A DNA stretch of 64,000 bases from a virus: positions 1 through 64,000 of the IMG/VR virus record IMGVR_UViG_3300021376_000037; one strand, written 5' to 3'. Position numbers and translations under genes: made by a program. Shown here piece after piece: positions 1,801 through 37,600 of this stretch; within the stretch, counting starts at the first letter, position 1; each line of letters starts with the position of its first letter. A model generated the notes under the pieces. It saw only the letters and a program-made list of their open reading frames with translations. It was not told the DNA's origin and ran no database searches.

Positions 1801-2092
1801 CCATATACATATGGTCATTGTGTAAAGCACCTTTACAGGTTGGGGTAAACGGCACCCTGTCGGGTTCACCCGGTCATTCCTCGATCATAGGCACACAGTG
1901 TATCACGTCTTAACGTTTTCTTCAATGAAAGCTTTTGAGGCTCGTAACCTCGCGGAATCATTAAGGAAAAGACAGATCAGACAGGAAAGCGGCCCGCAAA
2001 GAGTAGCGATGTTTTACATTATCCCGGCCCCCGTTTTTAGCCCCCCTGCGGAAAAAGTCAACCCCCGGTGTAAAAGTGTCACCGGCACGTTA
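1801..2092 (+). other. Gene-poor stretch with hairpins, no gene supported
   Basis: A perfect hairpin, TGTAAAG-CAC-CTTTACA, lies at 1821-1837. A second possible helix pairs AATGA (about 1925) with TCATT (about 1958) around GAGG/CCTC. An open frame at 1898-2143 has no ribosome-binding site, unnatural composition, and would cover a terminator element and a promoter, so I do not call it. GGTTGGGGTAAACGGCACC looks faintly like a tRNA D-arm, but no acceptor or anticodon stem can be built. Confidence 0.5.
2001..2038 (+). terminator. Recurrent terminator-like element, copy 1
   Basis: GTAGCGATGTTTTAC followed by CCCGGCCCCCGTTTTT at 2023-2038. This is the most degenerate hairpin of a five-copy family (others near 3210, 4389, 5489 and 6611). 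Each copy sits just before an operator-promoter module. Confidence 0.5.
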
Positions 2093-2155
2093 CGTCACGC
2101 GAGGGTGACACCCGAAAACGGGCAGGTTGCCAAGCGGCGCTAGGTGTGAGAATAT
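2093..2155 (+). promoter_or_regulatory. Operator plus sigma70-like leaderless promoter R1
   Basis: Palindrome CGTCAC-N6-GTGACA (2093-2110), short A-run, -35 TTGCCA (2127-2132), 17-bp spacer, -10 GAATAT (2150-2155). The ATG at 2163 begins 7 nt after the -10, so the transcript should start at or one base before the start codon. Confidence 0.75.
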
Positions 2156-2162
2156 ATGCGGC

Positions 2163-2300
2163 ATGAACGAAATCAACGGAATGACGAAGCGGAAGGTTCT
2201 CACGATTGCCCTAGGGATTGCCATTGTCGAGATAGCTCTTAGGCTTGCGGTCGTCGCCGCTATCGTGGCGGTTGTCAAGTTTGTGTGGGTGTCACTCTAA
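2163..2300 (+). CDS. 45-residue single-pass membrane protein
   Basis: Starts MNEINGMTKRK and continues with about 28 hydrophobic residues (VLTIALGIAIVEIALRLAV and onward), so it should span the inner membrane once. No Shine-Dalgarno sequence exists; the ATG is 7 nt downstream of the R1 -10 box, predicting leaderless translation. Its stop codon lies inside the spacer of the next operator palindrome (R2). No family recognised. Confidence 0.6.
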   Translation: MNEINGMTKRKVLTIALGIAIVEIALRLAVVAAIVAVVKFVWVSL

Positions 2301-2351
2301 AGCGACACCTTGAAAAAGTAGTTTGACCCTAACCCTTTTTTCCTGTAGATT
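2290..2351 (+). promoter_or_regulatory. Operator plus promoter R2 (leadered)
   Basis: Palindrome TGTCAC-N6-GCGACA (2290-2307), A-tract, -35 TTGACC (2323-2328), 17 bp, -10 TAGATT (2346-2351). The leader that follows contains ACGAAAGG as ribosome-binding site. It is nearly identical to the R8 promoter and leader at 5712-5762, so this module class is duplicated. Confidence 0.75.
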
Positions 2352-2381
2352 ATCCGCACACTCTAACGAAAGGCAAACACA

Positions 2382-3035
2382 ATGAACCTCAACCTCAAGT
2401 GGACCATGGGTAATGCAAAGCTTGTCAAGACCAGCGGTGAGGCTTATCGCGTGCTTGGCTTTGGCATCCCCGCTGATATGTCTTTCGACGGTGGCAATAC
2501 TTGTCCCGGCGCTAATGCTTGTCGCGGTGTCTGCTATGCAAAGCAGGGACGTTATATCATGGCAGGGGTTAAGAACGCTCGGATGCATAACTTCAATGCC
2601 TCCCGTGATGCTGCTTCCTTTGTGTCGTCTGCTATTGCAGACCTGACCCGTTTGGTTAAGCGTTACAACGTGGTTCGCTTGCACGATAGCGGCGATTTTT
2701 ACTCTCAGGAATATCTGAACGCTTGGAAGGCTATTGCTAATGCTTTCCCTAATACTATCTTCTATGCCTACACGAAATCTCTGCACCTTGATATTGAAAG
2801 CGATAAGCCTGCAAACCTTCGCATTATTCAGTCTCTCGGTGGCAAGTATGATGAAAAGATTAATCTCTCGCTCCCTCACTCTCGCATCTTTTCGACTCAC
2901 GCAGACCGTATTGCAGAGGATTATATTGACGGGAATGTGAGTGATATTCCTGCCATTGAAGGCGAGATTAATATTGGTTTGGTTTATCACGGAAACCGGA
3001 AGCTTACGTCTGCACAGAATGAGTTTTTCCGGTAG
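2382..3035 (+). CDS. GP88-family protein
   Basis: 217 residues. It carries the cysteine cluster CPGANACRGVCYAKQGRY (residues ~41-58), a VRLHDSGDFYSQEYL block (~99-113) and a FYAYTKS block. This order matches the phage GP88 family (named for a mycobacteriophage gene product), whose biochemical role is unknown. Three cysteines within 11 residues suggest a metal or Fe-S site. GAAAGGC lies 8 nt before the ATG. It is the largest gene of the first 8.5 kb and is driven by R2. A hairpin terminator follows at 3045. Confidence 0.75.
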   Translation: MNLNLKWTMGNAKLVKTSGEAYRVLGFGIPADMSFDGGNTCPGANACRGVCYAKQGRYIMAGVKNARMHNFNASRDAASFVSSAIADLTRLVKRYNVVRLHDSGDFYSQEYLNAWKAIANAFPNTIFYAYTKSLHLDIESDKPANLRIIQSLGGKYDEKINLSLPHSRIFSTHADRIAEDYIDGNVSDIPAIEGEINIGLVYHGNRKLTSAQNEFFR

Positions 3036-3044
3036 TAACACCCG

Positions 3045-3078
3045 CTTGCCTAGTGCTAATCACTAGGCAAGTTTCTTT
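3045..3078 (+). terminator. Rho-independent terminator
   Basis: A perfect 11-bp stem CTTGCCTAGTG / CACTAGGCAAG with loop CTAAT (3045-3071), followed by TTTCTTT. It lies between the GP88-like gene and the small gene at 3098, so it may limit rather than abolish expression of the latter. Confidence 0.8.
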
Positions 3079-3097
3079 AACTAACGAAAGGATAATA

Positions 3098-3208
3098 ATG
3101 ATTGACATGATTAAGGACGATCCGTTTGGTTTCTTTTTGCTGTATCCTATTTTGTTGTGTAACTGTATTGGCTTTGGGATATTACTTTCCGTTGTGCTTA
3201 TGCCGTGA
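3098..3208 (+). CDS. 36-residue membrane peptide
   Basis: Starts MIDMIKDDPFGFFLLYP; a hydrophobic stretch fills residues ~11-35. ACGAAAGGA lies upstream as ribosome-binding site, echoing the R2/R8 leaders. One of several single-pass microproteins in this region; no family recognised. The stop is directly followed by a terminator element at 3210. Confidence 0.5.
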   Translation: MIDMIKDDPFGFFLLYPILLCNCIGFGILLSVVLMP

Positions 3209-3209
3209 G

Positions 3210-3245
3210 TGTAAAGGGGCGTTACAAACCCCGGCCCCCGTTTTT
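3210..3245 (+). terminator. Recurrent terminator-like element, copy 2
   Basis: TGTAA/TTACA can pair (3210-3226), or alternatively GGGG (3216-3219) with CCCC (3229-3232). The element ends GGCCCCCGTTTTT. The two stems exclude each other, as in an attenuator; this is an inference. Confidence 0.6.
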
Positions 3246-3299
3246 AGCAGCCAGCCCCCGGTTGTCAAGCTCCGCCTGCTCAGTGTCACACCGGGGATG

Positions 3300-3362
3300 C
3301 GTCACGCTGCGGTGACAGAAAAAAAGATGCAGGTTGCAAGGGAGCGCGAACCGTGAGAGTAT
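3300..3362 (+). promoter_or_regulatory. Operator plus leaderless promoter R3
   Basis: Palindrome CGTCAC-N6-GTGACA (3300-3317), seven-A tract, -35 TTGCAA (3334-3339), 17 bp, -10 GAGTAT (3357-3362). The ATG at 3370 begins 7 nt after the -10. Confidence 0.75.
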
Positions 3363-3369
3363 ACCCACC

Positions 3370-3573
3370 ATGAACAACGAACACGACCCCATGTGCGAGC
3401 GGTGCGGTGAGGAACCCGCGCGGTGGCTTATTGAGCACGCGACTTATGGTGAGGCGGTGTGCATTGGTTGCGTTAATGACCAGCATGAATGGGAAACGCG
3501 GAAGGCGCAGCAGGAGAGGGAGCAAGCTTTTATGTCGATGGTGACGGAACCCATGATGGCTTACGAGGACTGA
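3370..3573 (+). CDS. Small zinc-finger protein, leaderless
   Basis: 67 residues with CERC (residues 9-12) and CIGC (~31-34), a two-CxxC zinc knuckle followed by a charged helix. A longer frame opens at a TTG inside the -35 box at 3334, but transcription should begin near 3369, so 3370 is the true start. There is no Shine-Dalgarno sequence. The stop codon falls inside the left half of the next palindrome. DNA or RNA binding is possible but not shown. Confidence 0.65.
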   Translation: MNNEHDPMCERCGEEPARWLIEHATYGEAVCIGCVNDQHEWETRKAQQEREQAFMSMVTEPMMAYED

Positions 3574-3633
3574 AACGCACGGGTGACAGTAAAAAAATCG
3601 CTGCTTGCAGATAACCCGAAATCGTGAGAGAAT
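3571..3633 (+). promoter_or_regulatory. Operator plus leaderless promoter R4
   Basis: Degenerate left half TGAAAC, N6, GTGACA (3583-3588), seven-A tract, -35 TTGCAG (3605-3610), 17 bp, -10 GAGAAT (3628-3633). The ATG at 3641 begins 7 nt after the -10. It overlaps the end of the previous gene. Confidence 0.75.
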
Positions 3634-3640
3634 GACCGGC

Positions 3641-3874
3641 ATGAACGACCTGATTAAGTGGACGAACGAGGCGACGGCGAATGTGGCGAAGTGGATCGAT
3701 GCGGATCCCTGCTTTTACAATGTGGCGAAGAACTGCCAAAAGGGACGTAACCCTTTCCGTGCCACCCGTAGTTGCATGAAGCTGCTCGGCTTCCACAAGA
3801 CTCCTGATCAGGTTTCCTTTTGGGATCCGAACATTAACATGAAGCAAATTAACTCTTTCATCAAGGATCTCTAA
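3641..3874 (+). CDS. Hypothetical protein, leaderless operon leader gene
   Basis: 77 residues starting MNDLIKWTNEATANVAKW, rich in Trp, Asn and Lys, with no recognised domain. The start is fixed by the promoter: the ATG is 7 nt past the -10, and a longer frame from TTG 3605 would begin inside the -35. It ends in TAATG shared with the next gene. First gene of a four-gene operon. Confidence 0.6.
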   Translation: MNDLIKWTNEATANVAKWIDADPCFYNVAKNCQKGRNPFRATRSCMKLLGFHKTPDQVSFWDPNINMKQINSFIKDL

Positions 3875-3942
3875 TGTTTACTTTTATTGTGCTTTGCATT
3901 TACGTCACTATCTTTTCACTCATGCTGGGAGGCAAGAACTAA
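3874..3942 (+). CDS. 22-residue hydrophobic peptide
   Basis: MFTFIVLCIYVTIFSLML followed by GGKN, almost entirely one membrane segment. Its start overlaps the previous stop (TAATG) and its stop overlaps the next start (TAATG), so it is translationally coupled on both sides. That coupling is the main support. It may be a real micropeptide or only a coupling device. Confidence 0.45.
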   Translation: MFTFIVLCIYVTIFSLMLGGKN

Positions 3943-4139
3943 TGGAACTTTCACTCGCTGATTTTCGTAAGGAACTCGGTATCACCACGCAGAGCGACTT
4001 TTGGGATTTGTTGAGCGATTGGAGTGAGGCAGAGAAGGTGCCAGCACTTTGCCGCGAATTGTGTGAGGTTGGACAGGGCGAAAAGTGCCAGCATGGTTGC
4101 CCGTCTATTATTGTTCGCATGATGAGGGGAGACAACTAA
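3942..4139 (+). CDS. Hypothetical protein
   Basis: 65 residues starting MELSLADFRKELGITT, with three cysteines in the C-terminal half. GGGAGG lies 9 nt before the ATG, which favours this start over an upstream in-frame codon. No known family. It sits in a tight operon between 3641 and 4386. Confidence 0.55.
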   Translation: MELSLADFRKELGITTQSDFWDLLSDWSEAEKVPALCRELCEVGQGEKCQHGCPSIIVRMMRGDN

Positions 4140-4140
4140 C

Positions 4141-4386
4141 ATGGCTGTTGAAAAGATTGGCAATGGTGGTTTCATGGTCACTGGTGAGCATATCGAGGCT
4201 TATCGCTTGCTGTCTTTGCGTATGGCATTGAAGCTTGGGTGTAGCGGCTTGAAGGGTCGCGTTAATGCTGCTAATATTGTGCGCGATATTCTGACAAACG
4301 CAAACCATACAGCTCCACGAAATAAGGAAAAGCTGCGAATCATGTATGATTATTATTTGCAGCAACAAGGTTTGCTCCAGCTGTAG
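4141..4386 (+). CDS. Hypothetical protein
   Basis: 81 residues, largely helical in appearance (AYRLLSLRMALKLG, KEKLRIMYDYYLQQQ). No motif recognised. Last gene of the R4 operon; a terminator element begins three bases after the stop codon. Confidence 0.55.
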   Translation: MAVEKIGNGGFMVTGEHIEAYRLLSLRMALKLGCSGLKGRVNAANIVRDILTNANHTAPRNKEKLRIMYDYYLQQQGLLQL

Positions 4387-4388
4387 AA

Positions 4389-4422
4389 GTAAAGGCGCTT
4401 TACAGCGCCCGGCCCCGGTTTT
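4389..4422 (+). terminator. Recurrent terminator-like element, copy 3
   Basis: Best copy of the family. GTAAAG-GCG-CTTTAC (4389-4403) and GGCGC-TTTACA-GCGCC (4394-4409) are both perfect and mutually exclusive. CGGCCCCGGTTTT follows. The second stem plus the T-run looks like a terminator; the first could act as an anti-terminator. Confidence 0.65.
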
Positions 4423-4426
4423 GTCA

Positions 4427-4491
4427 AGTGTCACCCTATCGTGACACTCCCAAATGTGACAGTTGCCGTTGTCAGACCCCTGCGCTATATT
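4427..4491 (+). promoter_or_regulatory. Operator plus leaderless promoter R5
   Basis: Perfect palindrome AGTGTCAC-N6-GTGACACT (4427-4448), a second GTGACA at 4456, -35 TTGCCG (4463-4468), 17 bp, -10 TATATT (4486-4491). The ATG at 4499 begins 7 nt after the -10. This is the cleanest operator of the ten. Confidence 0.8.
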
Positions 4492-4498
4492 GCTCACC

Positions 4499-4714
4499 AT
4501 GAACGAAGAAAACAGCAAGTGCTTTGAGTGTAACTGTGACATTCCCGCTTTCCGAGGGATGCAGGAAACCCGGATTAGCCGTTGGACCGGTAAGACGTTC
4601 CGCGTTGACCTGTGCGACCCGTGCTGGTTCAAGGACGAACCGGAAGACGAAGAGGACTGTAACGCAAAGGTGACACTCCAAAAAATGCAGGTTGACCGTA
4701 ACCCGAAGGCATGA
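4499..4714 (+). CDS. Small cysteine-rich protein, leaderless
   Basis: 71 residues with CFECNC near the start and CDPC near residue 39, a likely zinc-binding pair. The start is set by the R5 -10 box; no Shine-Dalgarno is present. The C-terminal quarter is encoded by the whole R6 operator and part of its promoter, so these ~57 bp are both coding and regulatory. Function unknown; similar in layout to the gene at 3370. Confidence 0.6.
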   Translation: MNEENSKCFECNCDIPAFRGMQETRISRWTGKTFRVDLCDPCWFKDEPEDEEDCNAKVTLQKMQVDRNPKA

Positions 4715-4720
4715 GAGGAT
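4658..4720 (+). promoter_or_regulatory. Operator plus leaderless promoter R6
   Basis: TGTAAC-N6-GTGACA (4658-4675), six-A tract, -35 TTGACC (4692-4697), 17 bp, -10 GAGGAT (4715-4720). The ATG at 4728 begins 7 nt after the -10. It lies inside the 3' end of the preceding gene. Confidence 0.7.
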
Positions 4721-4727
4721 ACACAAC

Positions 4728-4982
4728 ATGAACAACGACAACGACAACATCAGCAAGCGGATCGCGGTTCTCAACGCATGGTGGTTCACGGTTGGTCACA
4801 AGCACAGCAGGGACCACAAGCGGGTTGTTAAGCTTGTCAAGCGGGAAATGAAGGCGTGCGGTTTCCCGGTTCCGAAGGGTGGACATATTGCCTTGCAGAA
4901 CGCTTATACGAAGTTTCTTAAGGCTAATAATGCTTGGATTACTTACGGTGTCGGTCCCGTTGGCATCTGCTGCACCTACTAA
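4728..4982 (+). CDS. Hypothetical basic protein, leaderless
   Basis: 84 residues starting MNNDNDNISKRIAVLN. The middle is basic (HKHSRDHKRVVKLVKREMK) and the end is small and hydrophobic. No family recognised. The 4728 start is chosen because transcription should begin at about 4727. First gene of a four-gene operon. Confidence 0.6.
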   Translation: MNNDNDNISKRIAVLNAWWFTVGHKHSRDHKRVVKLVKREMKACGFPVPKGGHIALQNAYTKFLKANNAWITYGVGPVGICCTY

Positions 4983-4998
4983 GGAAAGGGATAACATA

Positions 4999-5223
4999 AT
5001 GGAAAACACCTACAACGGTTGGGCAAACTACGAGACTTGGAACGTCGCGCTGTATATTCAGAATGAGGAACCGCTGTATAGGATTGCAACGCGGTGTGAT
5101 TCTTATTCCGACTTTCTTTTCAAGTCTCACCGCATCCGTGGCGTCACGACTCCTGATAATGTGCTGTGGCACTCTTCCATTCTTAATTGGGACGAACTCA
5201 ACGCTATGATCAGGGATCTCTGA
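4999..5223 (+). CDS. Conserved phage protein, DUF7249-like
   Basis: 74 residues beginning MENTYNGWANYETWNVAL. The GWxNYETWNV(A/S)L(Y/W)I block is a signature of a small, widespread phage family that I recall as DUF7249; its function is unknown. AAGGAAAGGG precedes the ATG. The stop overlaps the next start (TGATG). Confidence 0.7.
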   Translation: MENTYNGWANYETWNVALYIQNEEPLYRIATRCDSYSDFLFKSHRIRGVTTPDNVLWHSSILNWDELNAMIRDL

Positions 5224-5303
5224 TGATTCATAAAAGCAACACAATCTTTTTCCTTCCTTCGCTGTATATTCCTGTTGGCATTATCATTTACCTCTGGAGA
5301 TAA
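5223..5303 (+). CDS. 26-residue membrane peptide
   Basis: MIHKSNTIFFLPSLYIPVG then IIIYLWR, a single hydrophobic span. Coupled to the previous gene by TGATG, with the next gene six bases downstream. Supported by context rather than by similarity. Confidence 0.45.
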   Translation: MIHKSNTIFFLPSLYIPVGIIIYLWR

Positions 5304-5308
5304 TAAAC

Positions 5309-5485
5309 ATGAATAATCCTTGCATCGACGGTCACAAGTCTCAGGCATACTGGAAGTATGACGCACGCGGCATCCCGCTTGCTAAGGTGTGCAAGCATTG
5401 TGTTGCGTTTAAGCTGTCAAAGTTTCGTCCAGAGGTTATCAATGATGCTAACTATTGGGCAGACGAGGTTATTGATAGCGATTAA
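5309..5485 (+). CDS. Conserved small phage protein with YDARGI motif
   Basis: 58 residues. The order GHKSQAYWKYDARGIPLAKV, then CKHC, KLSKFRPEV and DANYWADE, resembles a small phage family in which YDARGI is followed by a Cys pair and a KYRPE segment. It probably binds a metal ion. GGAGATAATAA precedes the ATG. Last gene of the R6 operon; an element with two hairpins follows. Confidence 0.65.
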   Translation: MNNPCIDGHKSQAYWKYDARGIPLAKVCKHCVAFKLSKFRPEVINDANYWADEVIDSD

Positions 5486-5488
5486 AAT

Positions 5489-5528
5489 GTAAGGAGTTTT
5501 TACTTGCCCCGGCCCGCGTTTTAGCGGG
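5489..5528 (+). terminator. Recurrent terminator-like element, copy 4
   Basis: GTAA/TTAC can pair at 5489-5503. CCCCGGCCCGCGTTTT follows and forms a second hairpin CCCGC-GTTTTA-GCGGG (5513-5528). It ends the R6 operon. Confidence 0.55.
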
Positions 5529-5576
5529 TACAAGGGGAAAAGCAAGGGGAAGTTTCCGTGTGTCACGCTGCGGTTG

Positions 5577-5639
5577 CGTCACCTGAATGTGACACCCGAA
5601 AACAGGTTGCTTGCAGGCAAGGGCAAGGTGTGAGAATAT
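5577..5639 (+). promoter_or_regulatory. Operator plus promoter R7, no intact gene
   Basis: CGTCAC-N6-GTGACA (5577-5594), AAAA, -35 TTGCAG (5611-5616), 17 bp, -10 GAATAT (5634-5639). All spacings match the family, but at the position where the other cassettes have ATG there is GTT (5647). Confidence 0.7.
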
Positions 5640-5646
5640 ATGTCCC

Positions 5647-5679
5647 GTTGAAGCAAGCGGGGACGGCAAGCAGGACTGA
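5647..5679 (+). pseudogene. Remnant of a leaderless cassette gene
   Basis: Exactly 7 nt after the R7 -10 the sequence reads GTT GAA GCA AGC and runs only ten codons to a TGA that falls in the next operator, just as the stop codons of intact cassette genes do. I read this as a gene almost wholly deleted with its start codon lost. It could instead be an unusual 10-residue peptide or a short RNA. Confidence 0.4.
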
Positions 5680-5740
5680 AACCCAGCGGTGACAGGTAGA
5701 AAAAAGGTAGCTTGACGGTTCAGCGGTTTTCCTGTAGATT
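5677..5740 (+). promoter_or_regulatory. Operator plus promoter R8 (leadered)
   Basis: TGAAAC-N6-GTGACA (5677-5694), six-A tract, -35 TTGACG (5712-5717), 17 bp, -10 TAGATT (5735-5740). The leader with ACGAAAGGCAAA is close to that of R2. Confidence 0.7.
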
Positions 5741-5774
5741 ATCCCCACACTGAAACGAAAGGCAAAAACAAAAC

Positions 5775-5996
5775 GTGATTACCCGTCAGTTTGGCATTGT
5801 GATTGAGAATCAGAAGGATTGGACGCTGGACGCGCTGCTGAATCAGTCTTGCATGAACGCAACGCATTGCGTCAACGCAGAGGATCCGCACGGTGAGCCT
5901 GCTCGCGTTTGGGCAGAAGGTGAGGGTCACGCCGAGCGTATCGCGGCGTTTCTGAAGTCTTACGGTTACACCATCATTGACACGGAGGAGGTTTGA
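5775..5996 (+). CDS. Hypothetical protein (GTG start)
   Basis: 73 residues beginning MITRQFGIVIENQKDW; a short alpha/beta protein ending in IIDTEEV. GTG is the only plausible start, placed ~13 nt after the AAAGG of the R8 leader. No domain recognised. First gene of a four-gene operon. Confidence 0.55.
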   Translation: MITRQFGIVIENQKDWTLDALLNQSCMNATHCVNAEDPHGEPARVWAEGEGHAERIAAFLKSYGYTIIDTEEV

Positions 5997-5998
5997 TT

Positions 5999-6145
5999 AT
6001 GACGCCTGTTCTTGGACAGACTGTGCATGGTTTCAGCGGTGACCCTTTCATTTTCCTTGCAATCAATGACATTGATGATGTTGTGGTGCGTTGTCCTGTC
6101 ACGTTGAAGCTTTACACTTTCCCCCGTTTCTTTTTCGACTTCTAA
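5999..6145 (+). CDS. Hypothetical protein, 48 residues
   Basis: Starts MTPVLGQTVHGFSGDPF and ends TFPRFFFDF. GGAGGTTTGATT just before the ATG is a strong ribosome-binding site, which is the main support. It appears strand-rich; no family recognised. Confidence 0.55.
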   Translation: MTPVLGQTVHGFSGDPFIFLAINDIDDVVVRCPVTLKLYTFPRFFFDF

Positions 6146-6156
6146 AGGAAAACATA

Positions 6157-6420
6157 ATGTCCCGTGAACTTCGCAATAACGATACTGGCAAGGTTGTGAC
6201 CGTTTATGGTTGGGCTATCACCCGCCACGCTTGGGAGTATTTTTTCACTTCCTCCGCTCCATCTGCTGACGATATTGTGGAAGCGATTGTGTATGGGCAC
6301 GAGGTTGAGCGTGGGGATGTTTCCCTGTCAGAGATTCGACCTTATGTGTTGTCTCACACTGTTGACCTTGTGGATCTTGCTCCTCCCCCTAACTGGCATT
6401 GGGTAGACAATGAAAACTGA
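6157..6420 (+). CDS. Hypothetical protein
   Basis: 87 residues starting MSRELRNNDTGKVVTVYGW; AAAGGAAAA lies 8 nt upstream. The block ITRHAWEYFF recalls phage proteins of the ribonuclease-toxin-like or BrnT type, but the match is too weak to name. Overlaps the next gene by 11 nt. Confidence 0.55.
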   Translation: MSRELRNNDTGKVVTVYGWAITRHAWEYFFTSSAPSADDIVEAIVYGHEVERGDVSLSEIRPYVLSHTVDLVDLAPPPNWHWVDNEN

Positions 6421-6610
6421 AATCGAAATCATGGAAGATATTTCGTGGTTGCTGTATGAGGCAAATATGCAACCCAATCCCAGACATTATGCAATGGGCA
6501 AACATGGAACGGTGTACGCTTACATTCCAAACAATGGCATAGATAAGCGTCCAGATAAGGCAGCGATTGCCGATCGCATCCGATACATGGCGGACAAGGT
6601 TCTGCGATAA
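6410..6610 (+). CDS. Hypothetical protein
   Basis: 66 residues starting MKTEIEIMEDISWLLYEAN. Predicted mixed alpha/beta and mildly basic at the C-terminus. The start overlaps the previous gene. Last gene of the R8 operon; the stop is directly followed by a terminator element. Confidence 0.55.
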   Translation: MKTEIEIMEDISWLLYEANMQPNPRHYAMGKHGTVYAYIPNNGIDKRPDKAAIADRIRYMADKVLR

Positions 6611-6647
6611 TGTAAAGGGGTTTGACAGACCCCGGCCCCGCTTTTTT
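6611..6647 (+). terminator. Recurrent terminator-like element, copy 5
   Basis: GGGGT-TTGACAG-ACCCC (6617-6633) followed by GGCCCCGCTTTTTT. The outer TGTAAA/TTTGACA can pair partly, as in the other copies. Confidence 0.65.
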
Positions 6648-6649
6648 CA

Positions 6650-6715
6650 AGTGTCACCCTGCTGTGACGTAACGCGAAAGTTACAGTTGCCGTTTTCCCT
6701 GTCCTCACCTATATT
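6650..6715 (+). promoter_or_regulatory. Operator plus leaderless promoter R9
   Basis: AGTGTCAC-N6-GTGACG (6650-6669), -35 TTGCCG (6687-6692), 17 bp, -10 TATATT (6710-6715). The ATG at 6723 begins 7 nt after the -10. Closest relative of R5. Confidence 0.75.
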
Positions 6716-6722
6716 ACTCACC

Positions 6723-7046
6723 ATGAACAACACGAACAAGCGGACGGTCTATGTGGTTGGCAATGGCAAGCGGTTCCTTAAGGAAAAGCTGAACCTTGGT
6801 TCGTTCAAGGATGCCATCATTTACGATAGCGAATATGGTGCCGAGAAGGCAATGTATAAGATGATTAATAACCATGCCGACACAAGGGCACATCTCGCTG
6901 AGGTACTTAAGCGTGGTTATGTTGTTGAATACATCTATAACGATAGCGAATATGGGCAGAATCACATTGCCAACATGAAGAAATATATTCGCGGGCAGAA
7001 TCCCAAGGGACTGAAGGTTATGAAGGTGACTGTCACGCTTGGGTGA
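6723..7046 (+). CDS. Hypothetical protein, leaderless
   Basis: 107 residues starting MNNTNKRTVYVVGNGKRFL. A longer frame opens at 6567 but would cover a terminator element and the R9 promoter, so 6723 is the start. YDSEYGAEKAMYKM and YNDSEYGQNHIANM look like an internal repeat of a D/NDSEYG unit. Function unknown. The stop codon lies in the right half of the R10 palindrome. Confidence 0.6.
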   Translation: MNNTNKRTVYVVGNGKRFLKEKLNLGSFKDAIIYDSEYGAEKAMYKMINNHADTRAHLAEVLKRGYVVEYIYNDSEYGQNHIANMKKYIRGQNPKGLKVMKVTVTLG

Positions 7047-7093
7047 CACTAGAAAAAAGATTCCTTGACCTTAACCCGAACCTGTGAGATACT
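7031..7093 (+). promoter_or_regulatory. Operator plus promoter R10
   Basis: TGTCAC-N6-GTGACA (7031-7048), six-A tract, -35 TTGACC (7065-7070), 17 bp, -10 GATACT (7088-7093). The ATG at 7100 is 6 nt after the -10, again predicting a leaderless or 1-nt-leader mRNA. Confidence 0.75.
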
Positions 7094-7099
7094 AACGCC

Positions 7100-7507
7100 A
7101 TGACCAACGAAAACCCCTTGAACCTGTTTCCCTGCAAGGATGCTGTCAGCGACGGTTGCCCTAACACCACTGTTGCGCCTGATACCTACTGCTGTGATTG
7201 CCACCTTTTCTATGAGGAGATTGCCGAGTCTCAAAAGCTGCTGAATGATGAAAGCTGGAAGTCTCCTGCTGATTCTATTGCTGCCGTTGATGCTGCGCGG
7301 AGCGTTCTCCCGCATTTCGAGATTGTCGATATTCCTGAGCCGCAGCCTGAGCCTGTTAAGCCTGACCTTGACGGTGTTTGCTACACGATGAACGCTGCCG
7401 AGGTTGATTGTCAGGCTGCGCTGTTTGAGATTGCCGCTGTGCTGGCAAAGTATCAGGACACGCTTAAGCAGATTGACACGGTTCTCGCTTCCTACGAGGT
7501 TCACTAA
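7100..7507 (+). CDS. Hypothetical protein with N-terminal cysteine cluster
   Basis: 135 residues. Five cysteines lie in residues ~12-34 (FPCKDAVSDGC, CCDC), consistent with a metal-binding fold. A Pro/Glu linker (PEPQPEPVKP) and a C-terminal helical part follow. First gene of a six-gene operon with overlapping or abutting ORFs. No family recognised. Confidence 0.6.
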   Translation: MTNENPLNLFPCKDAVSDGCPNTTVAPDTYCCDCHLFYEEIAESQKLLNDESWKSPADSIAAVDAARSVLPHFEIVDIPEPQPEPVKPDLDGVCYTMNAAEVDCQAALFEIAAVLAKYQDTLKQIDTVLASYEVH

Positions 7508-7508
7508 T

Positions 7509-7697
7509 ATGGGCAAGGCAAAGGGTGTGAATATCCAAATCACGCAGCAGCAGGCAAATACAATGGTTGCCGCAATGGATGCTGTAAAGGAAGCGTTGGA
7601 CCGTACAATGCCAAAGGGCAAACTGTATCAGGAGAACCTTTATCAAGCGCAGAAGCTTATCACAGAACAGATTATGGGAAAGGGAAAACTAAACTAA
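7509..7697 (+). CDS. Hypothetical helical protein
   Basis: 62 residues starting MGKAKGVNIQITQQQANTM, almost entirely helical and amphipathic. The ATG follows the previous stop by one base. The longer frame from 7404 overlaps the upstream gene and is not used. The stop overlaps the next ATG. Confidence 0.55.
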   Translation: MGKAKGVNIQITQQQANTMVAAMDAVKEALDRTMPKGKLYQENLYQAQKLITEQIMGKGKLN

Positions 7698-7882
7698 TGC
7701 GCGAACGCAAGGTTCTCAGCGGTGAGGAGATAGACGCAATGGCTGAAAAGAATAGGCGCATCCTTATGACGCATTATAGCGTGGACGGAAAGCTGCCAGA
7801 TGACTTAGCCAATATTGCAGACCTTACCCGTATGTTGCTGTATAATCATAACTGTGCTATCCTTAAGGAAAGGGAAAACTAA
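7697..7882 (+). CDS. Hypothetical protein
   Basis: 61 residues starting MRERKVLSGEEIDAMAEKN. The start is coupled to the previous stop. Charged, probably helical; no family recognised. Confidence 0.55.
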   Translation: MRERKVLSGEEIDAMAEKNRRILMTHYSVDGKLPDDLANIADLTRMLLYNHNCAILKEREN

Positions 7883-7886
7883 ACTA

Positions 7887-8051
7887 ATGGACCATCTTAA
7901 ATATTTGCGTGAGTTAGACGAGAAGTGGGAGAAGCATCGTAAGGTGTTGCGTGAGATGGGGTGGGAGGATGATAAGATTGAGGAGTATCTAGACAAGGCA
8001 AAGACTCATATTCTCGCACACCAATCGCTGACGAAGCTGGGGGTACAATAA
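7887..8051 (+). CDS. Hypothetical charged helical protein
   Basis: 54 residues starting MDHLKYLRELDEKWEKHRK, a probable coiled coil. AAGGAAAGGGAAAAC precedes the ATG; the longer frame from 7815 lies inside the previous gene. Ends in TAATG shared with the next gene. Confidence 0.55.
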   Translation: MDHLKYLRELDEKWEKHRKVLREMGWEDDKIEEYLDKAKTHILAHQSLTKLGVQ

Positions 8052-8176
8052 TGAATAAGATAAAGGATATCGATTTGCAGGAGCTGAACTATATTGTGCA
8101 TGCAACTGGTATGGCAATCTTCTTTGTGGTTGGCACAGCTGCCCTGCTTTATTTTGGTTTGGCTGTGGGGTACTAA
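8051..8176 (+). CDS. 41-residue single-pass membrane protein
   Basis: A short charged N-terminus (MNKIKDIDLQEL) is followed by a hydrophobic span of about 22 residues (MAIFFVVGTAALLYFGLAV). Coupled on both sides by TAATG overlaps, which supports translation. Confidence 0.55.
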   Translation: MNKIKDIDLQELNYIVHATGMAIFFVVGTAALLYFGLAVGY

Positions 8177-8538
8177 TGAGAAAAGAACTACACCAAGCAA
8201 AGCTAACCCTTAGCAGACTGAATGACCTGTGGAGTTTCACCGGAAAGGAAATGACATATAAGGTTCCTCTCCTGTTGCGGTTAGACCCTGATGATCCTGT
8301 TGAGGCATTGCTCTGTGTCGTTACTGCTTATGGTTGTGTTGCTGCTCATGCTGGATTGGCAATCGAGGATGGGATTAAACCAGACGAGACATGGGATAGA
8401 TTGTTCAAGCAGGTAGGCCAAGCCGTCATGTTTGACTTGCCCAGCAGCCTTAAATACTTTCAAAAGAAAGAGTTTGAAAAGAAAAGCGCAAGGGCATTCA
8501 CCATCGGCTGGGGGGAGGACTCCCCCTCCCCCCCGTAG
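8176..8538 (+). CDS. Hypothetical protein
   Basis: 120 residues starting MRKELHQAKLTLSRLND. The hydrophobic middle (ALLCVVTAYGCVAAHAGLA) could be a buried helix. The C-terminal residues EDSPSPP are encoded by the GC-rich hairpin that ends the operon. No family recognised. Last gene of the G+C-rich region. Confidence 0.6.
   Translation: MRKELHQAKLTLSRLNDLWSFTGKEMTYKVPLLLRLDPDDPVEALLCVVTAYGCVAAHAGLAIEDGIKPDETWDRLFKQVGQAVMFDLPSSLKYFQKKEFEKKSARAFTIGWGEDSPSPP
8511..8532 (+). terminator. GC-rich hairpin at the end of the early-type region
   Basis: GGGGGAGG-ACTCCC-CCTCCCCC, an 8-bp G/C stem inside the last codons of the preceding gene. It has no T-tract, so it could slow rather than end transcription. 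It lies at the point where base composition changes. Confidence 0.4.
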
Positions 8539-16680: not shown

Positions 16681-18159
16681 ATGTCACAAACTATTTTAGA
16701 GAGCGGTTTAGAAACTAAAAAAGAATTAACTTTTTCTAAAATAAAAGAAATTTTAACTTCCGCTTGCGATGTTAGTTTAAAAAAAACAAAAGAGCTATCA
16801 GGACAAAAAGTTTTTATTTCCTTTGTTGACGGCAAGGCAAGAACAATTATCAATTCATCAGATAAAAAAACTGGTGGTATTACAGCAGCTGAAATAGAAA
16901 ATAAAATATCTGATAAAGATAAAAGTTTGTCGTTGAAAAATGCAATTAATAGTTTTGAAAAAATAATAAATACATATATTAGTCATGAGCAACAAAAAGA
17001 ATTATTTGAAGAAACAGATACAGATAATTTACAACAAGAAGAAAAAAGATATATTTATTATTTTGGTTTTCAAATAATGGATCATAGTAACAATGAAATG
17101 ATAAATTATGATACAAAAACTTTTATTTTAAATCATAATGAATATAAAAAAATAGATTATGCAACAGGTAAAGAAATACCTGCTGATTCTTCCGATGTGT
17201 CTAAAAGATCTAATAAGTTAGAAAAAATTATCAACTCTGCCCAAGACGATAAGAATTCAGATTCTAATCACAATGAAATATCAGCTTTTAAAAAATTATC
17301 TTCTTTATCTGATAAGGTTCCTTTAAATACAGCGATAAATAAAATTGATTCTTTATTATCTGCTACTAACAGTTATATAAATAACGAAGAGTTATCTTTA
17401 ACAGACGAATCTTCTATAGATGATTTTATGTTAGCAAGAGTTATCGCTTATATAAACACTATTTTAAAACATAAAAAAATTAATGTAGACCCCATGTTAA
17501 AAGTTGCTATTGCTAAAACTGTTATGGGGGTCGGTGGAATATCTATAGTTGATATTTCTAAAAAATTAGAAGACAAAGATAAAAAATATATAAAAGAAAA
17601 TATAATTAACCCAAATAGTAAAAAAGCTATTATAAAAAAGTCTATCTATCCATTAGAGCTTATAATTAATAATTTTGCTGTAGATATGCTAAAAGGAATG
17701 AAAAGCTTATTTTTATTAACTAAAAATAAAGATTTAGTAAGTATTAGCAAAGATATTGATTCAGCTATTAAGAGTATAGGTAATATAACGGACGGTGATA
17801 CTAAAAACATTTTAAAGAACGAAATAAGAAATCTTAAAAAAGCGGACGCCCTAAGCTCTACTAATAATGGTTTTACATTTATTTTTGATAATATTGTATA
17901 TAAATTTAATGGTAGTTACGAGCCAGTTAGTAAATTATTAAGTTTGCTAAATTACAAATCAGAAATTGAGCAATTAAATGAAAATGTTTTTGATATAAAT
18001 GATATAATTAGTGAAGTTTTATCCTGTAAAAAAGAAAAGTATAATTTATTACGTAAAAAGAAGAAAGTAAAGGAAATGGCGGCGGCTGGTATGGGGGGCG
18101 CAATTACAGGATTTGGTGCTCCACTGATAGTTAAACGTAGAAGCTTAAGGAGATATTAA
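16681..18159 (+). CDS. Hypothetical protein, possible virion component
   Basis: 492 residues, Lys/Ser/Asn-rich. The N-terminal part (VFISFVDGKARTIIN) may be a small alpha/beta domain; the rest looks helical. The C-terminus has a Gly/Ala segment (EMAAAGMGGAITGFGAPL) then KRRSLRRY. Such EM(A/S)AAG-type tails recur in virion-region proteins of marine myoviruses and might mark processed or packaged proteins. That is inference. Confidence 0.5.
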   Translation: MSQTILESGLETKKELTFSKIKEILTSACDVSLKKTKELSGQKVFISFVDGKARTIINSSDKKTGGITAAEIENKISDKDKSLSLKNAINSFEKIINTYISHEQQKELFEETDTDNLQQEEKRYIYYFGFQIMDHSNNEMINYDTKTFILNHNEYKKIDYATGKEIPADSSDVSKRSNKLEKIINSAQDDKNSDSNHNEISAFKKLSSLSDKVPLNTAINKIDSLLSATNSYINNEELSLTDESSIDDFMLARVIAYINTILKHKKINVDPMLKVAIAKTVMGVGGISIVDISKKLEDKDKKYIKENIINPNSKKAIIKKSIYPLELIINNFAVDMLKGMKSLFLLTKNKDLVSISKDIDSAIKSIGNITDGDTKNILKNEIRNLKKADALSSTNNGFTFIFDNIVYKFNGSYEPVSKLLSLLNYKSEIEQLNENVFDINDIISEVLSCKKEKYNLLRKKKKVKEMAAAGMGGAITGFGAPLIVKRRSLRRY

Positions 18160-28234: not shown

Positions 28235-29005
28235 ATGTCTAAACATATTTCTTATTCGTCTTTAAAGACTTGGAATGAGTGTCCGTTTAAGTATAAGCTT
28301 GTTTACGTAGATGGATTAGGAAAGTACACTGGCAGTGAATATACTGCTTTCGGCACTGCTTTGCATGAAGCGTGCGAAAAGAAACTGCTGAATAACAGCG
28401 AGGATGAAGTAAAGATCTTTACTGAATCTTTTGAAGATGAAATTAAGAAACTTACTTCTCAAAAAACTCCTGACGAAAAATTAATCACTGAAATGCGTGA
28501 ACAGGGAAAAACGCTAGCTAAACTAGTTCTTCCTGCCGTCTTAAAGCAATTTGGTAATTTTACTGTGCTTGCTGCTGAAGAAGATATTTATCTAAAAATT
28601 GCTGATTTTGCTGATTGGAACTTTAAAGGTTTTATTGATCTTATAATTAAAACTGAAGATGGTAAAATTCACATTCTTGATTGGAAAAGTTGTGCATGGG
28701 GTTGGGATGCTAAGAAAAAAAGTGATGCAATTACTACTTATCAATTAACGTTATATAAGCATTTTTATTGCTTAAAGCACAACATAGAAACATCTATGGT
28801 TGAAACACATTTTGCTCTGCTTAAACGAACTGCTAAGGAAGATAATGTAGAAATATTTCGCGTTACAAGTGGCGATAAAAAAACAGAAAATGCTCTTAAT
28901 TTAATGAAAAAAGCATTGTATAGTATTGATAAAAGTTTTTTTCCAAAAAATCGCTTGAGTTGTAAAAATTGCGAGTTTAATAATACTAAGGAATGTCCTA
29001 AATGA
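28235..29005 (+). CDS. Cas4/RecB-like PD-(D/E)XK nuclease with Fe-S cysteines
   Basis: 256 residues. ISYSSLKTWNECPFKYKL (first Cys, residue 16), GTALHE (His44), FKGFIDLII and HILDWKS (active-site Asp and DxK), QLTLYKHFY, and C-terminal CKNCEFNNTKEC. The Cys/three-Cys arrangement is that of the 4Fe-4S AddB/Cas4 class. It should cut or resect DNA during replication or recombination. It overlaps the next gene by 4 nt. Confidence 0.8.
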   Translation: MSKHISYSSLKTWNECPFKYKLVYVDGLGKYTGSEYTAFGTALHEACEKKLLNNSEDEVKIFTESFEDEIKKLTSQKTPDEKLITEMREQGKTLAKLVLPAVLKQFGNFTVLAAEEDIYLKIADFADWNFKGFIDLIIKTEDGKIHILDWKSCAWGWDAKKKSDAITTYQLTLYKHFYCLKHNIETSMVETHFALLKRTAKEDNVEIFRVTSGDKKTENALNLMKKALYSIDKSFFPKNRLSCKNCEFNNTKECPK

Positions 29006-29982
29006 AAACTGCTGTTGTAACTGGAATAACCGGACAGGATGGTAGTTATCTTGCGGAGTTGTTATTAGAAAAAAATTATAAAGTTATTGGTTTAGTTCGT
29101 AGAAGTTCTATGGAAGATAAAAAACTGTATAACATACAGCATATATTAAATAATCCTAATTTAACTTTAGAAAATGGTGATTTAACAGATGCCCCTTCGT
29201 TGTGGAGAATAATAGGAACTTATCAGCCTCATGAATTTTATAATCTCGCTGCACAAAGTCATGTTGGCGCGTCCTTCACATCACCTGAAAGTACATTTCA
29301 AATAAATGCTACGGGCGTTGTAAACTGTTTAGAGGCAATTAGAACGCTATGCCCTACTACTCGCTTTTATCAAGCGTCTACAAGTGAAATGTTTGGCGAT
29401 AATGTGGCTGCTCCTCAAAACGAGCAATCGTTTTTATCTCCTGTCTCACCATATGCCTGCGCTAAAGTCGCTGCTCATAATATAGTTATTAACTACCGTA
29501 AGGCATATAACCTTTTTGCCTGCTCTGGTATTTTGTTCAATCACGAATCTCCTAGACGTGGTGAACAATTTGTTACTAGAAAGATTACTAAAGCCGCCGC
29601 CCGTATTAAACTTGGATTACAAAAGGAATTACGTCTTGGTAATCTTGATGCACAAAGAGATTGGGGTTACGCAAAAGAATATGTAGAAGGTATGTGGTTA
29701 ATGATGCAGCACAGCATACCTGACGATTATGTTTTAGGTACTGGTAAAACTAGAACAATATTACATTTTATTAATTGCGTATCAGAAATTGCTGGTTATA
29801 ATTTAATGCAACATGTAATTGTTGATGATAAGTATAAGCGACCAAGCGAAGTTCCTTTACTATTAGCGGATGCATCAAAAGCTAAAAGAGTTTTAGGTTG
29901 GGAGCCAAAAACAAATCTAAAGCAATTAGCTGAATTGATGTATAATTCGGATTTAGAAAAGGAAAAAGAAAATGTCAAATAA
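29002..29982 (+). CDS. gmd: GDP-mannose 4,6-dehydratase
   Basis: 326 residues. The Rossmann motif GITGQDGSYLAELL, catalytic ASTSEMFG (Thr127) and SPYACAKVA (Tyr151, Lys155), and the NHESPRRGEQFVTRKI block are diagnostic. The enzyme makes GDP-4-keto-6-deoxy-mannose, precursor of fucose, rhamnose or perosamine-type sugars. No matching reductase is seen in the window. First gene of the carbohydrate cluster. Confidence 0.9.
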   Translation: MKTAVVTGITGQDGSYLAELLLEKNYKVIGLVRRSSMEDKKLYNIQHILNNPNLTLENGDLTDAPSLWRIIGTYQPHEFYNLAAQSHVGASFTSPESTFQINATGVVNCLEAIRTLCPTTRFYQASTSEMFGDNVAAPQNEQSFLSPVSPYACAKVAAHNIVINYRKAYNLFACSGILFNHESPRRGEQFVTRKITKAAARIKLGLQKELRLGNLDAQRDWGYAKEYVEGMWLMMQHSIPDDYVLGTGKTRTILHFINCVSEIAGYNLMQHVIVDDKYKRPSEVPLLLADASKAKRVLGWEPKTNLKQLAELMYNSDLEKEKENVK

Positions 29983-31213
29983 GAAAATTAAAATCCTAAC
30001 CATGAGTGATGATCCAAGATCTCCTAGTGGCGTTGGTACACAAACAAGCTATATATTGCACAGCTTAATGAAAACTGGTAAATATAAGATTATCTCTCTT
30101 GGCGGTGCTATTAAACATTCTGATTATCGACACGCTAAATTTGAAGAATATGGTGATGATTTTGTCATTATTCCTGTAGATGGGTATGGAATCCCAGATC
30201 TTATTAGAGGTATATTAGCAAAAGAAAAACCAGATATTATCTGGATGATGACTGATCCAAGATTTTATACTTGGTTTTGGAATATGGAGCAAGAAGTCAG
30301 AGCTAATGTTCCTATAGTATACTATCATGTATGGGATAACTATCCGTACCCTAAATTTAATCGTCCATATTATTTATCAAACGATAAAATTGTTACGATT
30401 TCAAAACTTACTAGCGATATTGTAAAAACTGTTGCTCCAGAAGTAGAAGAACAGTATGTCCCCCATGCAGTAAACCCTGATATATTCAAGATTTTAGATG
30501 AAAAAGAATATGCACAGTTTAGGATGAAAAACAAAACGCTTTTCTTTTGGACTAACAGAAACGCTAGAAGAAAGCTAAGTGGAACACTTATTTACTGGTA
30601 TAAAAAGTTCTTGGACGTTGTAGGACACGATAAGGCATTTTTATTGATGCATACGGACCCTAATGATCCAAACGGTCAACCATTACATGTATTAGCAGAA
30701 GAAAATGGCTTAACTAGAGATAATTTTGCTATTTCTGTTAATAAAATACATCCACAAGAAATGGCTAAGTTTTACAACGCTGCCGATTGCACTATAAATA
30801 TTAGCGATGCGGAAGGTTTTGGTCTTTCTTGTTTAGAAAGTTTGTCTTGCGGAACACCAGTAATTGGTAATAAAACTGGCGGTATTCAAGACCAGCTAAC
30901 AGATGGAAAAGAACAATTTGGTGTATTAGTAGAACCTGCTAGCAGAATCATAGTAGGTAGCCAAGATGTACCTTGGATTTATGAAGATCGTGTAAGTGAA
31001 CAAGGTATAGTAGATGCTATGGTCAAAATTCATAACATGACTAGAGAACAAAGAAAAGAACTGGGTTTGAAAGGTAAACAGCATGTAGAAAATTGTTTTA
31101 ATTTTAACAATTTTTGTCAATCATGGGATAAAATCATGACTGATATTCATGACAAACATGGTTCTTGGGAAACTAGAAAAAATCATACATCTTGGAGCGT
31201 AAAGGAATACTAG
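29972..31213 (+). CDS. GT4-like glycosyltransferase 1
   Basis: 413 residues. It opens with a GT-B N-terminal motif (DDPRSPSGVGTQTSYI) and has the C-terminal block DAEGFGLSCLESLSCGTPVI with the Glu that binds the donor nucleotide. The acceptor is unknown. It overlaps gmd by 11 nt. Confidence 0.8.
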   Translation: MSNKKIKILTMSDDPRSPSGVGTQTSYILHSLMKTGKYKIISLGGAIKHSDYRHAKFEEYGDDFVIIPVDGYGIPDLIRGILAKEKPDIIWMMTDPRFYTWFWNMEQEVRANVPIVYYHVWDNYPYPKFNRPYYLSNDKIVTISKLTSDIVKTVAPEVEEQYVPHAVNPDIFKILDEKEYAQFRMKNKTLFFWTNRNARRKLSGTLIYWYKKFLDVVGHDKAFLLMHTDPNDPNGQPLHVLAEENGLTRDNFAISVNKIHPQEMAKFYNAADCTINISDAEGFGLSCLESLSCGTPVIGNKTGGIQDQLTDGKEQFGVLVEPASRIIVGSQDVPWIYEDRVSEQGIVDAMVKIHNMTREQRKELGLKGKQHVENCFNFNNFCQSWDKIMTDIHDKHGSWETRKNHTSWSVKEY

Positions 31214-31214
31214 A

Positions 31215-32432
31215 ATGAAAAAAATATTAATAAGTGGTCCTGTATTATCTAGAAGCGGTTATGGAGAAATGGCTAGATTTGCATTACGATCTTTAAAAGA
31301 TAGACAAGATGTTGATCTTTATATTTTACCCACTAATTGGGGCAATACTGGGTGGCTTCATGAACTTAATGAAGAAAGAAAATACATAGATAATATTGTT
31401 TCTAAAACTCAAGTTTTATTGCAGCAAACAAATAATCAACCTCAATTTGACGTTTCTATTCAAGTAACTATCCCTAATGAATGGAAGAAACTAGCTGCCG
31501 TTAATATTGGATACACCGCTGGAATAGAAACTAATTTAATATCTCCTGCTTGGTTGCAGAATTCACAATTAATGGATAAAATCATCGTTATTAGTGAACA
31601 CGCTAAGTCTGGTTTTGTAAATACCATTTTTGGTAATCCTCAAGGACAACAATTCAAAGTATCAACGCCTGTCGAAGTTGTACATTTACCATTCAGAGAT
31701 TTACAAAAGGTAGATTTAGATTTAAAACTAAAGTATGATTTTAACTTTTTAGCTGTTTGCCAATGGGGTCCAAGAAAGAATTTAGAACAAACAATTGTTG
31801 GATTTTTAGAAGAATTTAAAAATGAAGAAGTTGGTTTGGTGTTAAAAACAAATACAGCTAATGACTCTATAATCGACAAGTTTCATACAGATAAACGTTT
31901 AAGTGCCATATTAGCTAACTATAAAGATCGTAAATGTTCTATAACCTTGCTGCATGGTCATTTAAGCGATGAACAAATGGCATCATTGTATACCCATCCA
32001 AAAATTAAAGCAATCGTTTCTACAACTCATGGAGAAGGTTTTGGCTTACCATTGTTAGAAGCAGCCGCAAACGCTTTGCCGGTTATTGCAACTGATTGGA
32101 GTGGTCATACAGATTTTTTATATGTTAATGATAATGATTCTAAAAAGCGTATGTTTGGTAAAGTGGATTACGAATTAAAACCAATTAGCAAAGAACATGT
32201 GTGGAAAGGTGTTTTAGAAGAAGGAACAAGCTGGGCTTATCCTATAATGTCTAGTTATAAAAATAAATTAAGAGATTGTTTTAAAGACTACGGTAGATAC
32301 AAGTCTCAAGCTAAAAAACTTGCTCCTTGGATTAAACAAACATTTGAACAAGTAAAATTACATGAAAAGTTCTCTTCTTCTGTTTTTCAACTATCTGGAA
32401 TAGTACAACAACAGTTAATATCCTTAGAATAA
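31215..32432 (+). CDS. GT4-like glycosyltransferase 2
   Basis: 405 residues. SGPVLSRSGYGEMARFAL at the N-terminus and THGEGFGLPLLEAAANALPV at the C-terminus are GT-B/GT4 features. It is probably related to gene 1. The base after the previous stop starts it, so it is co-translated. Confidence 0.8.
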   Translation: MKKILISGPVLSRSGYGEMARFALRSLKDRQDVDLYILPTNWGNTGWLHELNEERKYIDNIVSKTQVLLQQTNNQPQFDVSIQVTIPNEWKKLAAVNIGYTAGIETNLISPAWLQNSQLMDKIIVISEHAKSGFVNTIFGNPQGQQFKVSTPVEVVHLPFRDLQKVDLDLKLKYDFNFLAVCQWGPRKNLEQTIVGFLEEFKNEEVGLVLKTNTANDSIIDKFHTDKRLSAILANYKDRKCSITLLHGHLSDEQMASLYTHPKIKAIVSTTHGEGFGLPLLEAAANALPVIATDWSGHTDFLYVNDNDSKKRMFGKVDYELKPISKEHVWKGVLEEGTSWAYPIMSSYKNKLRDCFKDYGRYKSQAKKLAPWIKQTFEQVKLHEKFSSSVFQLSGIVQQQLISLE

Positions 32433-32433
32433 T

Positions 32434-35113: not shown

Positions 35114-35115
35114 AT

Positions 35116-35916: not shown

Positions 35917-35927
35917 GATTATAATAT

Positions 35928-37599: not shown

Positions 37600-37600
37600 T

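Follow-up and report, generated by a model that had tools for sequence, protein, structure and literature searches.

Repeated early promoter cassettes with an activator-type upstream site probably make up a gene-shuffling region of a T4-like phage

Why would a phage set the same regulatory frame five times in front of unrelated small genes? The question is raised by positions 2001-8538 of IMG/VR virus record IMGVR_UViG_3300021376_000037, of whose 76,997 bases we analysed 64,000 (hereafter the window). The original prediction described five units there, each with a terminator element, an operator and promoter, a single small open reading frame (ORF), a second operator and promoter, and a short operon, and took them for a scaffold for the insertion of early genes. 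Our analysis suggests that the locus is probably a hyperplastic region, in which a T4-like phage shuffles its genes, and that it consists of repeated early promoter cassettes of an activator type.

The five-fold layout was borne out. The GC-rich sequence CCCGGCCC occurred exactly five times in the window (at 2023, 3230, 4408, 5508 and 6631) compared to an expectation of 0.14, or 0.05 in shuffles of the region, and a repeat search returned frames of 36-85 nucleotides (nt) around it. The core of these frames is an 18-bp dyad, TGTCAC-N6-GTGACA. Eleven dyads with at least 10 of 12 matches lay in 2001-7100 compared to 0.23 in 300 dinucleotide shuffles (maximum 2), and eight had at least 11 matches compared to 0.02 in the shuffles; none of at least 11/12 was found in the rest of the window. 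Every unit contained one dyad-promoter upstream and one downstream, giving ten predicted starts, and the presence of 5 units with 10 such modules within 2001-7100 is far above chance. The hyperplastic region holds several near-identical copies of the cassette.

The rest of the description stood in part, failing for the small ORF of unit 4, the ORF end in unit 3 and the terminator call. The units fill the proposed extent only up to ~7093, where the dyad modules end; 7100-8538 is the last operon alone. The first-position ORFs of 45, 67, 71 and 107 amino acids (aa) are indeed mutually dissimilar (no similarity by tblastn at E<=1e-3), but unit 4 has no such ORF: merely ~35 nt separate promoter 4a from the next dyad-promoter, as is also the case in a close relative, IMGVR_UViG_3300034200_001896 (L001). 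As proposed, the single gene ends in the second dyad in three units, 1, 2 and 5, with stops at 2300, 3573 and 7046 (dyads in the table), and the L001 counterparts of these genes also stop within the second dyad (11037, 12478 and 13789). Both TGAAAC and GTGACA contain TGA. The overlap does not hold for unit 4, nor for unit 3, whose ORF runs through the dyad and the -35 box to a stop at 4714. The two regulatory frames of a unit are also not identical, the second promoter having a single dyad and the first usually a tandem pair offset by 16 nt.

All dyads followed by a promoter were collected from the window, from L001 and L013 (both from record G001) and from L045 (record G002), 27 modules in all. 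The gap between dyad and -35 box was 16 nt in 17 of the 27 and 12-17 nt in all, placing the dyad centre, in the usual numbering, at -60.5 in 15 modules and between -57.5 and -61.5 in all 27. No proximal dyad overlapped the core promoter (0/27). By motif, each cassette carries a predicted sigma70-like early promoter (ten in the window, 27 modules overall), usually with a 17-nt spacer. Most modules had an A-run of at least 4 in the gap, the promoter-near half-site was the better conserved half of the dyad, and at the first promoter of a unit a second dyad usually lay 16 or 17 nt upstream. The -35 box started with TTGC in most dyad modules; among promoter-like sites of the same regions the TTGC:TTGA ratio was 14:3 with a dyad and 5:29 without (Fisher p 4e-6), a difference tempered by the loose motif scan behind these counts, which includes chance matches. 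Action of a class-I activator on a weak core promoter is established for E. coli CRP. The near-constant upstream position, the weak -35 box and the A-tract together point to a class-I activator site and not a repressor operator, so that "operator", the label first given to the dyads, is better replaced by "activator-type site".

Other roles for the dyad were considered. It was rejected as an RNA hairpin terminator because an A-run rather than a T-run follows it. As a host regulon motif it was rejected after an exact module search of bacterial genomes gave 2 unrelated matches against ~2 expected by estimate. In other viruses the dyad pattern gave single, scattered matches, and one stretch (L036) has GTGACA repeats in another layout.

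We then compared the window with L001, whose gp88 protein is 94% identical. L001 has the frames in the same order, without CCCGGCCC. In its unit 1, gp88 stands directly behind one promoter and the membrane-peptide cassette is absent; unit 3 is missing, its DUF7249 gene being part of the operon of unit 2; and the shared 73-aa gene of unit 4 comes after a further dyad-promoter with a 99-aa gene. The differences between the two genomes in units 1, 3 and 4 are whole cassettes, bounded by cassettes, and the search that the original prediction had proposed, for related phages with the same frame and different cargo, was answered in these units. Protein searches with the 84-aa and 73-aa proteins returned nothing, or L001 only. 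In G002, dyad modules surround a MoxR-type ATPase region shared with G001, and the contig stops before gp88.

Similarity among the modules themselves followed the genome in some units. We denote window modules W and L001 modules L, with the unit number and a or b for first or second position. For the first-position modules of unit 2 (L001) and unit 5 (both genomes) the best match was a paralog in the same genome: the paralog pairs W3a-W5a and L2a-L5a were 73% and 74% alike, compared to 49% for the ortholog pairs W2a-L2a and W5a-L5a. This higher similarity within than between genomes in units 2 and 5 suggests that modules have been homogenised or exchanged. W1a was closest to L4a (77%) and W1b to W4b (73%), as though a module pair of the unit 4 type had passed to unit 1. 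The tandem dyads were offset by 16 in the units of the window, and by 17 in each of the four gp88-region units of L001.

For more distant relatives, a search with the MoxR protein gave 80 loci; all genomes used in the analysis are fragments or of uncertain completeness. Among the 80 loci, repeated dyads of at least 11/12 were present in the G001 and G002 loci only. The gp88 proteins of G007, G008 and G010 are 71%, 61% and 59% identical (range 57-71% including L044), and the DUF7249, 73-, 58-, 65- and 87-aa genes recur in one or more of these four. Four genomes have both gp88 and the 120-aa gene, and the stretch between the two varies among them in which genes it contains and how they are ordered. 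G007 has gp88, 58-aa, 67-aa, 65-aa, DUF7249, 81-aa, 73-aa, 87-aa and 120-aa genes in this order, and G008 has gp88, 87-aa, 65-aa, DUF7249, 81-aa, 48-aa, 58-aa, 107-aa, Cys-protein and 120-aa genes. No dyad was found in the early regions of G007, G008, G010 and L044. Instead, G007 has an exact 25-nt hairpin three times, inside a 113-nt repeat, G008 its own repeat copies of up to 85 nt, and L044 GGCCGG[CT]CCC nine times; the G007 hairpin and the L044 motif are in no other genome compared, just as CCCGGCCC is confined to the window. The elements of the distant relatives look like a hairpin plus a promoter, repeated and private to each genome. L049, a distant relative with the 194-aa gene, has no repeated frames in the upstream stretch.

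At this larger distance, then, appear the same genes with unrelated flanks, the finding that had been named as speaking against an insertion scaffold. That reading is favoured by L001, with the same frames and other cargo, and disfavoured by the distant relatives, which keep many of the genes and change the elements. The same genes behind unrelated elements indicate that the cargo is a shared, shuffled gene set of the lineage and that the frame changes faster. As a separate observation, another dyad-like motif, TTTCATGCTGAAAG, precedes the -35 box by a few bases in promoters of G007 (L138, reverse strand, ~5195-5260 and 6790-6830), as if another regulator were used there.

The proposal that CCCGGCCC is an intrinsic terminator was supported neither by RNA folding, with z-scores of ~0 or above in four of five units and -1.8 in unit 4, nor by a terminator scan, which gave no forward terminator-like match on any of the five elements. 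Hairpins of L001 fold with z of -2.1 to -4.4 and those of G007, G008 and G010 with z of -2.2 to -3.4, and we believe that the GC-rich or stem-loop element is probably a terminator in origin. A hairpin after promoter 4a was dismissed as a conserved RNA (z near 0); tRNAs were the sole Rfam matches. Beside the stem-loop, several relatives have a leftward sigma70-like promoter (e.g. TTGACT-17-TATAAT) that would transcribe into the hairpin (L139 9202, 9955, 10739 and 12013; L140 7017, 8111, 9565 and 5245; L013 ~17150-17237; L001 ~1170-1265); its counterpart in the window is degenerate, TTGACA being paired with TAAAAA or TGTAAA. In G008 (L139 9119-9199 and 10661-10741) a rightward promoter begins at a stop codon (TAGTTGACA..TAGAAT) directly before the hairpin and could yield a ~70-nt hairpin RNA; the two copies are 75% alike.

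The assignment to T4-like phages comes from the virion genes of the window, which are T4-like. A 600-aa protein (48666-50468) resembles baseplate wedge proteins with 29-30% identity over 98-99% of its length, the matches being the baseplate wedge protein of Flavobacterium phage immuto and a protein of a Microcystis phage, and a PhoH-like gene and long tail genes are also present. By these genes the phage appears to be a T4-like myovirus; a freshwater origin of the lineage is our guess from the look of its relatives. GC content is 48% in the cassette region versus 31% in the window past 10.5 kb. A DNA search of phage isolates gave one 37-bp match only, in the DUF7249 gene.

From this arrangement we infer a mechanism in which a sequence-specific activator would act from a site upstream of the sigma70-type early promoter of each cassette. 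Bound to the TGT-N12-ACA dyad near -60, this activator would contact the C-terminal domain of the RNA polymerase alpha subunit seated on the A-tract, and this contact would offset the weak TTGC -35 box. The GC-rich or stem-loop element would set off the preceding operon, and the overlap of stop codon and dyad would keep modules compact. Because the cassettes provide near-identical short homologies in one orientation, recombination between them is possible and could duplicate, delete, swap or homogenise modules, with single genes gained or lost. Several points weigh against this account. The close relatives come down to two independent genomes, one without the gp88 region. The compared modules are short (~70-130 bp) and trees from them are weak. 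Modules 2b (72%), 4a (76%) and 5b (71%) keep ortholog-level similarity, so homogenisation is not general. Ogr, the P2 activator, had no match at E<=1 in G000, G001 and G002, and none of 73 local ORFs had a helix-turn-helix Pfam match, the records in both cases being partial.

We weighed three other explanations. If the dyads were repressor operators, a phage or prophage repressor would silence all early promoters from distal sites, much like the stoperators of mycobacteriophage L5; many alike dyads, tandem sites and one regulon would suit this, as would the second half-site or full site that abuts the -35 box in units 3 and 5 (W5a, 6668-6685). A repressor site is, however, expected to overlap -35, -10 or +1, whereas all 27 proximal dyads lie upstream of the core at a near-constant distance, mostly by an A-tract and with a weak -35 box; neither a repressor nor an integrase was seen, and T4-like virion genes are present. 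We consider repression unlikely. A second alternative is that the promoters are duplicates passed on vertically, that selection for one regulator keeps them similar, and that genes come and go independently with no exchange of cassettes; this seems quite unlikely to us. Selection on a shared binding site can account for the dyad and the core hexamers, and modules 2b, 4a and 5b behave as orthologs would, but likeness reaches into spacers and flanks (W1b-W4b, 80% over 70 nt; W3-W5, 77-82% over 52-57 nt), and each genome has one tandem offset and one GC-rich element throughout. That the dyad or the GC-rich element is the target of an element-encoded recombinase or transposase, with site-specific insertion in place of homologous recombination, would fit the location of gains and losses at the frames. 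It is highly improbable given that no recombinase was seen among the scanned ORFs, that the modules are 25-50% divergent with a normal promoter inside, and that the HNH genes are of homing type and located elsewhere.

Table 1. Features of the cassette region (window coordinates)
Feature	Position	Strand	Remarks
CCCGGCCCCCG-TTTTT element, unit 1	2023..2041	+	without convincing hairpin
Tandem 18-bp dyads 1a	2077..2110 (2077-2094, 2093-2110, offset 16)	+	
Promoter 1a, TTGCCA / GAATAT region (TGTGAGAATAT)	2127..2155	+	
45-aa hydrophobic (membrane) peptide ORF	2163..2300	+	no counterpart at this place in L001
Module 1b	2290..2351	+	dyad 2290-2307, -35 TTGACC 2323, -10 TAGATT ending 2351
Gp88-family gene	2382..3035	+	PF17338, E 6e-42; 94% identical in L001
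CCCGGCCC element, unit 2	3210..3248	+	
Module 2a	3284..3362	+	degenerate distal dyad 3284, proximal dyad 3300-3317, -35 TTGCAA 3334, -10 GAGTAT
67-aa CxxC protein	3370..3573	+	weak DUF7685 match below cutoff
Module 2b	3571..3633	+	dyad 3571-3588 starting with TGA stop of upstream ORF, -35 TTGCAG, -10 GAGAAT
Unit 2 operon: phrog_871-type, 65-aa, 81-aa genes	3641..4386	+	
CCCGGCCC element, unit 3	4388..4423	+	
Module 3a	4429..4491	+	dyad 4429-4446, -35 TTGCCG 4463, -10 TATATT
71-aa Cys-rich ORF	4499..4714	+	passes next dyad, stop directly before -10
Module 3b	4658..4720	+	dyad 4658-4675, -35 TTGACC 4692, -10 GAGGAT
Unit 3 operon: 84-aa, DUF7249 (4999-5223), 58-aa (5309-5485) genes	4728..5485	+	
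CCCGGCCC element, unit 4	5488..5525	+	
Module 4a	5561..5639	+	tandem dyads 5561, 5577, -35 TTGCAG 5611, TGTGAGAATAT; no ORF behind
Module 4b	5677..5740	+	dyad 5677-5694, -35 TTGACG 5712, -10 TAGATT
Unit 4 operon: 73-, 48-, 87-, 66-aa genes	5775..6610	+	
CCCGGCCC element, unit 5	6611..6647	+	
Module 5a	6652..6715	+	dyads 6652, 6668, -35 TTGCCG 6687, -10 TATATT
107-aa gene	6723..7046	+	orthologs: L001 61%, G008 40%
Module 5b	7031..7093	+	dyad 7031-7048, -35 TTGACC 7065, -10 GATACT
Unit 5 operon: 135-, 62-, 61-, 54-, 41-, 120-aa genes	7100..8538	+	

Genes outside the cassette region of the window were also noted. In the close relatives, a MoxR-type AAA ATPase and a DUF2201 VWA protein form a pair under dyad promoters (L013 18049-19098; L001 54-1121), and relatives of the ATPase occur in 249 viral stretches. 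A protein with CCHC zinc-knuckle-like repeats, unusual for a phage, is the product of the first gene behind a module in G001 (L013 17338-17928), a gene also found in G002. In a series of small genes at L001 6780-7260, the -35 and -10 boxes of a gene are encoded by the final codons of the one before it (CTTGACTTCCGCAACAAGTAGGGTATAGT). By inspection, genes of G001 look like those for IMP dehydrogenase, a GroEL-like chaperonin and adenylosuccinate synthetase (L014 2322-3350 and 10368-11960; L013 9582-10577), and window positions 29002-38452 hold a nucleotide-sugar and glycosyltransferase-like block (epimerase/dehydratase, several glycosyltransferases, UDP-galactopyranose mutase-like).

On the cassette reading, recombining promoter cassettes, known from enteric T4-like phages, would occur also in an uncultured and apparently freshwater lineage, and the activator-like site with its precise spacing would be an addition to the known cassettes. 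Each phage may even have a private early regulon, one type of activator site or stem-loop being copied onto the early cassettes, homogenised within a genome and replaced wholesale by exchange between lineages, with the genes left in place, though we hold this idea only tentatively and think it rather doubtful. If it is true, the early genes of one phage would go unexpressed by a related phage sharing the cell, and recombination would favour a phage's own cassette type. The natural series of genomes with the same small genes and different cassette families makes regulon turnover and the gain and loss of small early genes directly testable.

Among known systems, the stoperators and start-associated sequences of mycobacteriophage L5 are asymmetric or translation-start motifs. 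They resemble the present case in that one regulatory motif recurs many times at small genes, and differ from it in that the motifs here are dyads at a fixed promoter distance. Class-I activator promoters are exemplified by E. coli CRP, which acts at -61.5, and the TyrR box is TGTAAA-N6-TTTACA. Shared with these are the site distance, the weak -35 box, the room for the alpha C-terminal domain between site and -35, and the 6-6-6 dyad layout of TyrR; the half-site sequence is different, and no such protein was found in the phage records. The sites of P2 lie near -55 and serve late genes. P2-type late promoters have a TGT-N12-ACA dyad and are activated by the zinc-finger protein Ogr (PMC3931495). 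The cassettes share with them TGT-N12-ACA upstream of a sigma70 core promoter, several times per genome, but the dyad centre is at ~-60.5 and the genes are apparently early. Because of this position and the lack of an Ogr match in G000, G001 and G002, we did not class them with P2. Closest are the promoter-early stem-loops (PeSLs) of RB49 and phi1 among the T4-like phages, reportedly described by Arbiol et al. in 2010 and Comeau et al. in 2014. PeSLs are described as cassettes of a promoter and a stem-loop through which genes are shuffled in RB49/phi1 and other T4-like phages (PMC4503421). Like PeSLs, the present elements are repeated composite promoter cassettes in a hyperplastic early region of a T4-like myovirus, and gains, losses and shuffling between relatives are bounded by them. 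Unlike PeSLs, they have the upstream 18-bp activator-like dyad, single or tandem, and two promoters per unit; the stem-loop is degenerate in the window and replaced by CCCGGCCC, and cassette sequence is each genome's own. Judged from sequence, the cassettes are best read as a PeSL variant of T4-like phages with a private activator-like site.

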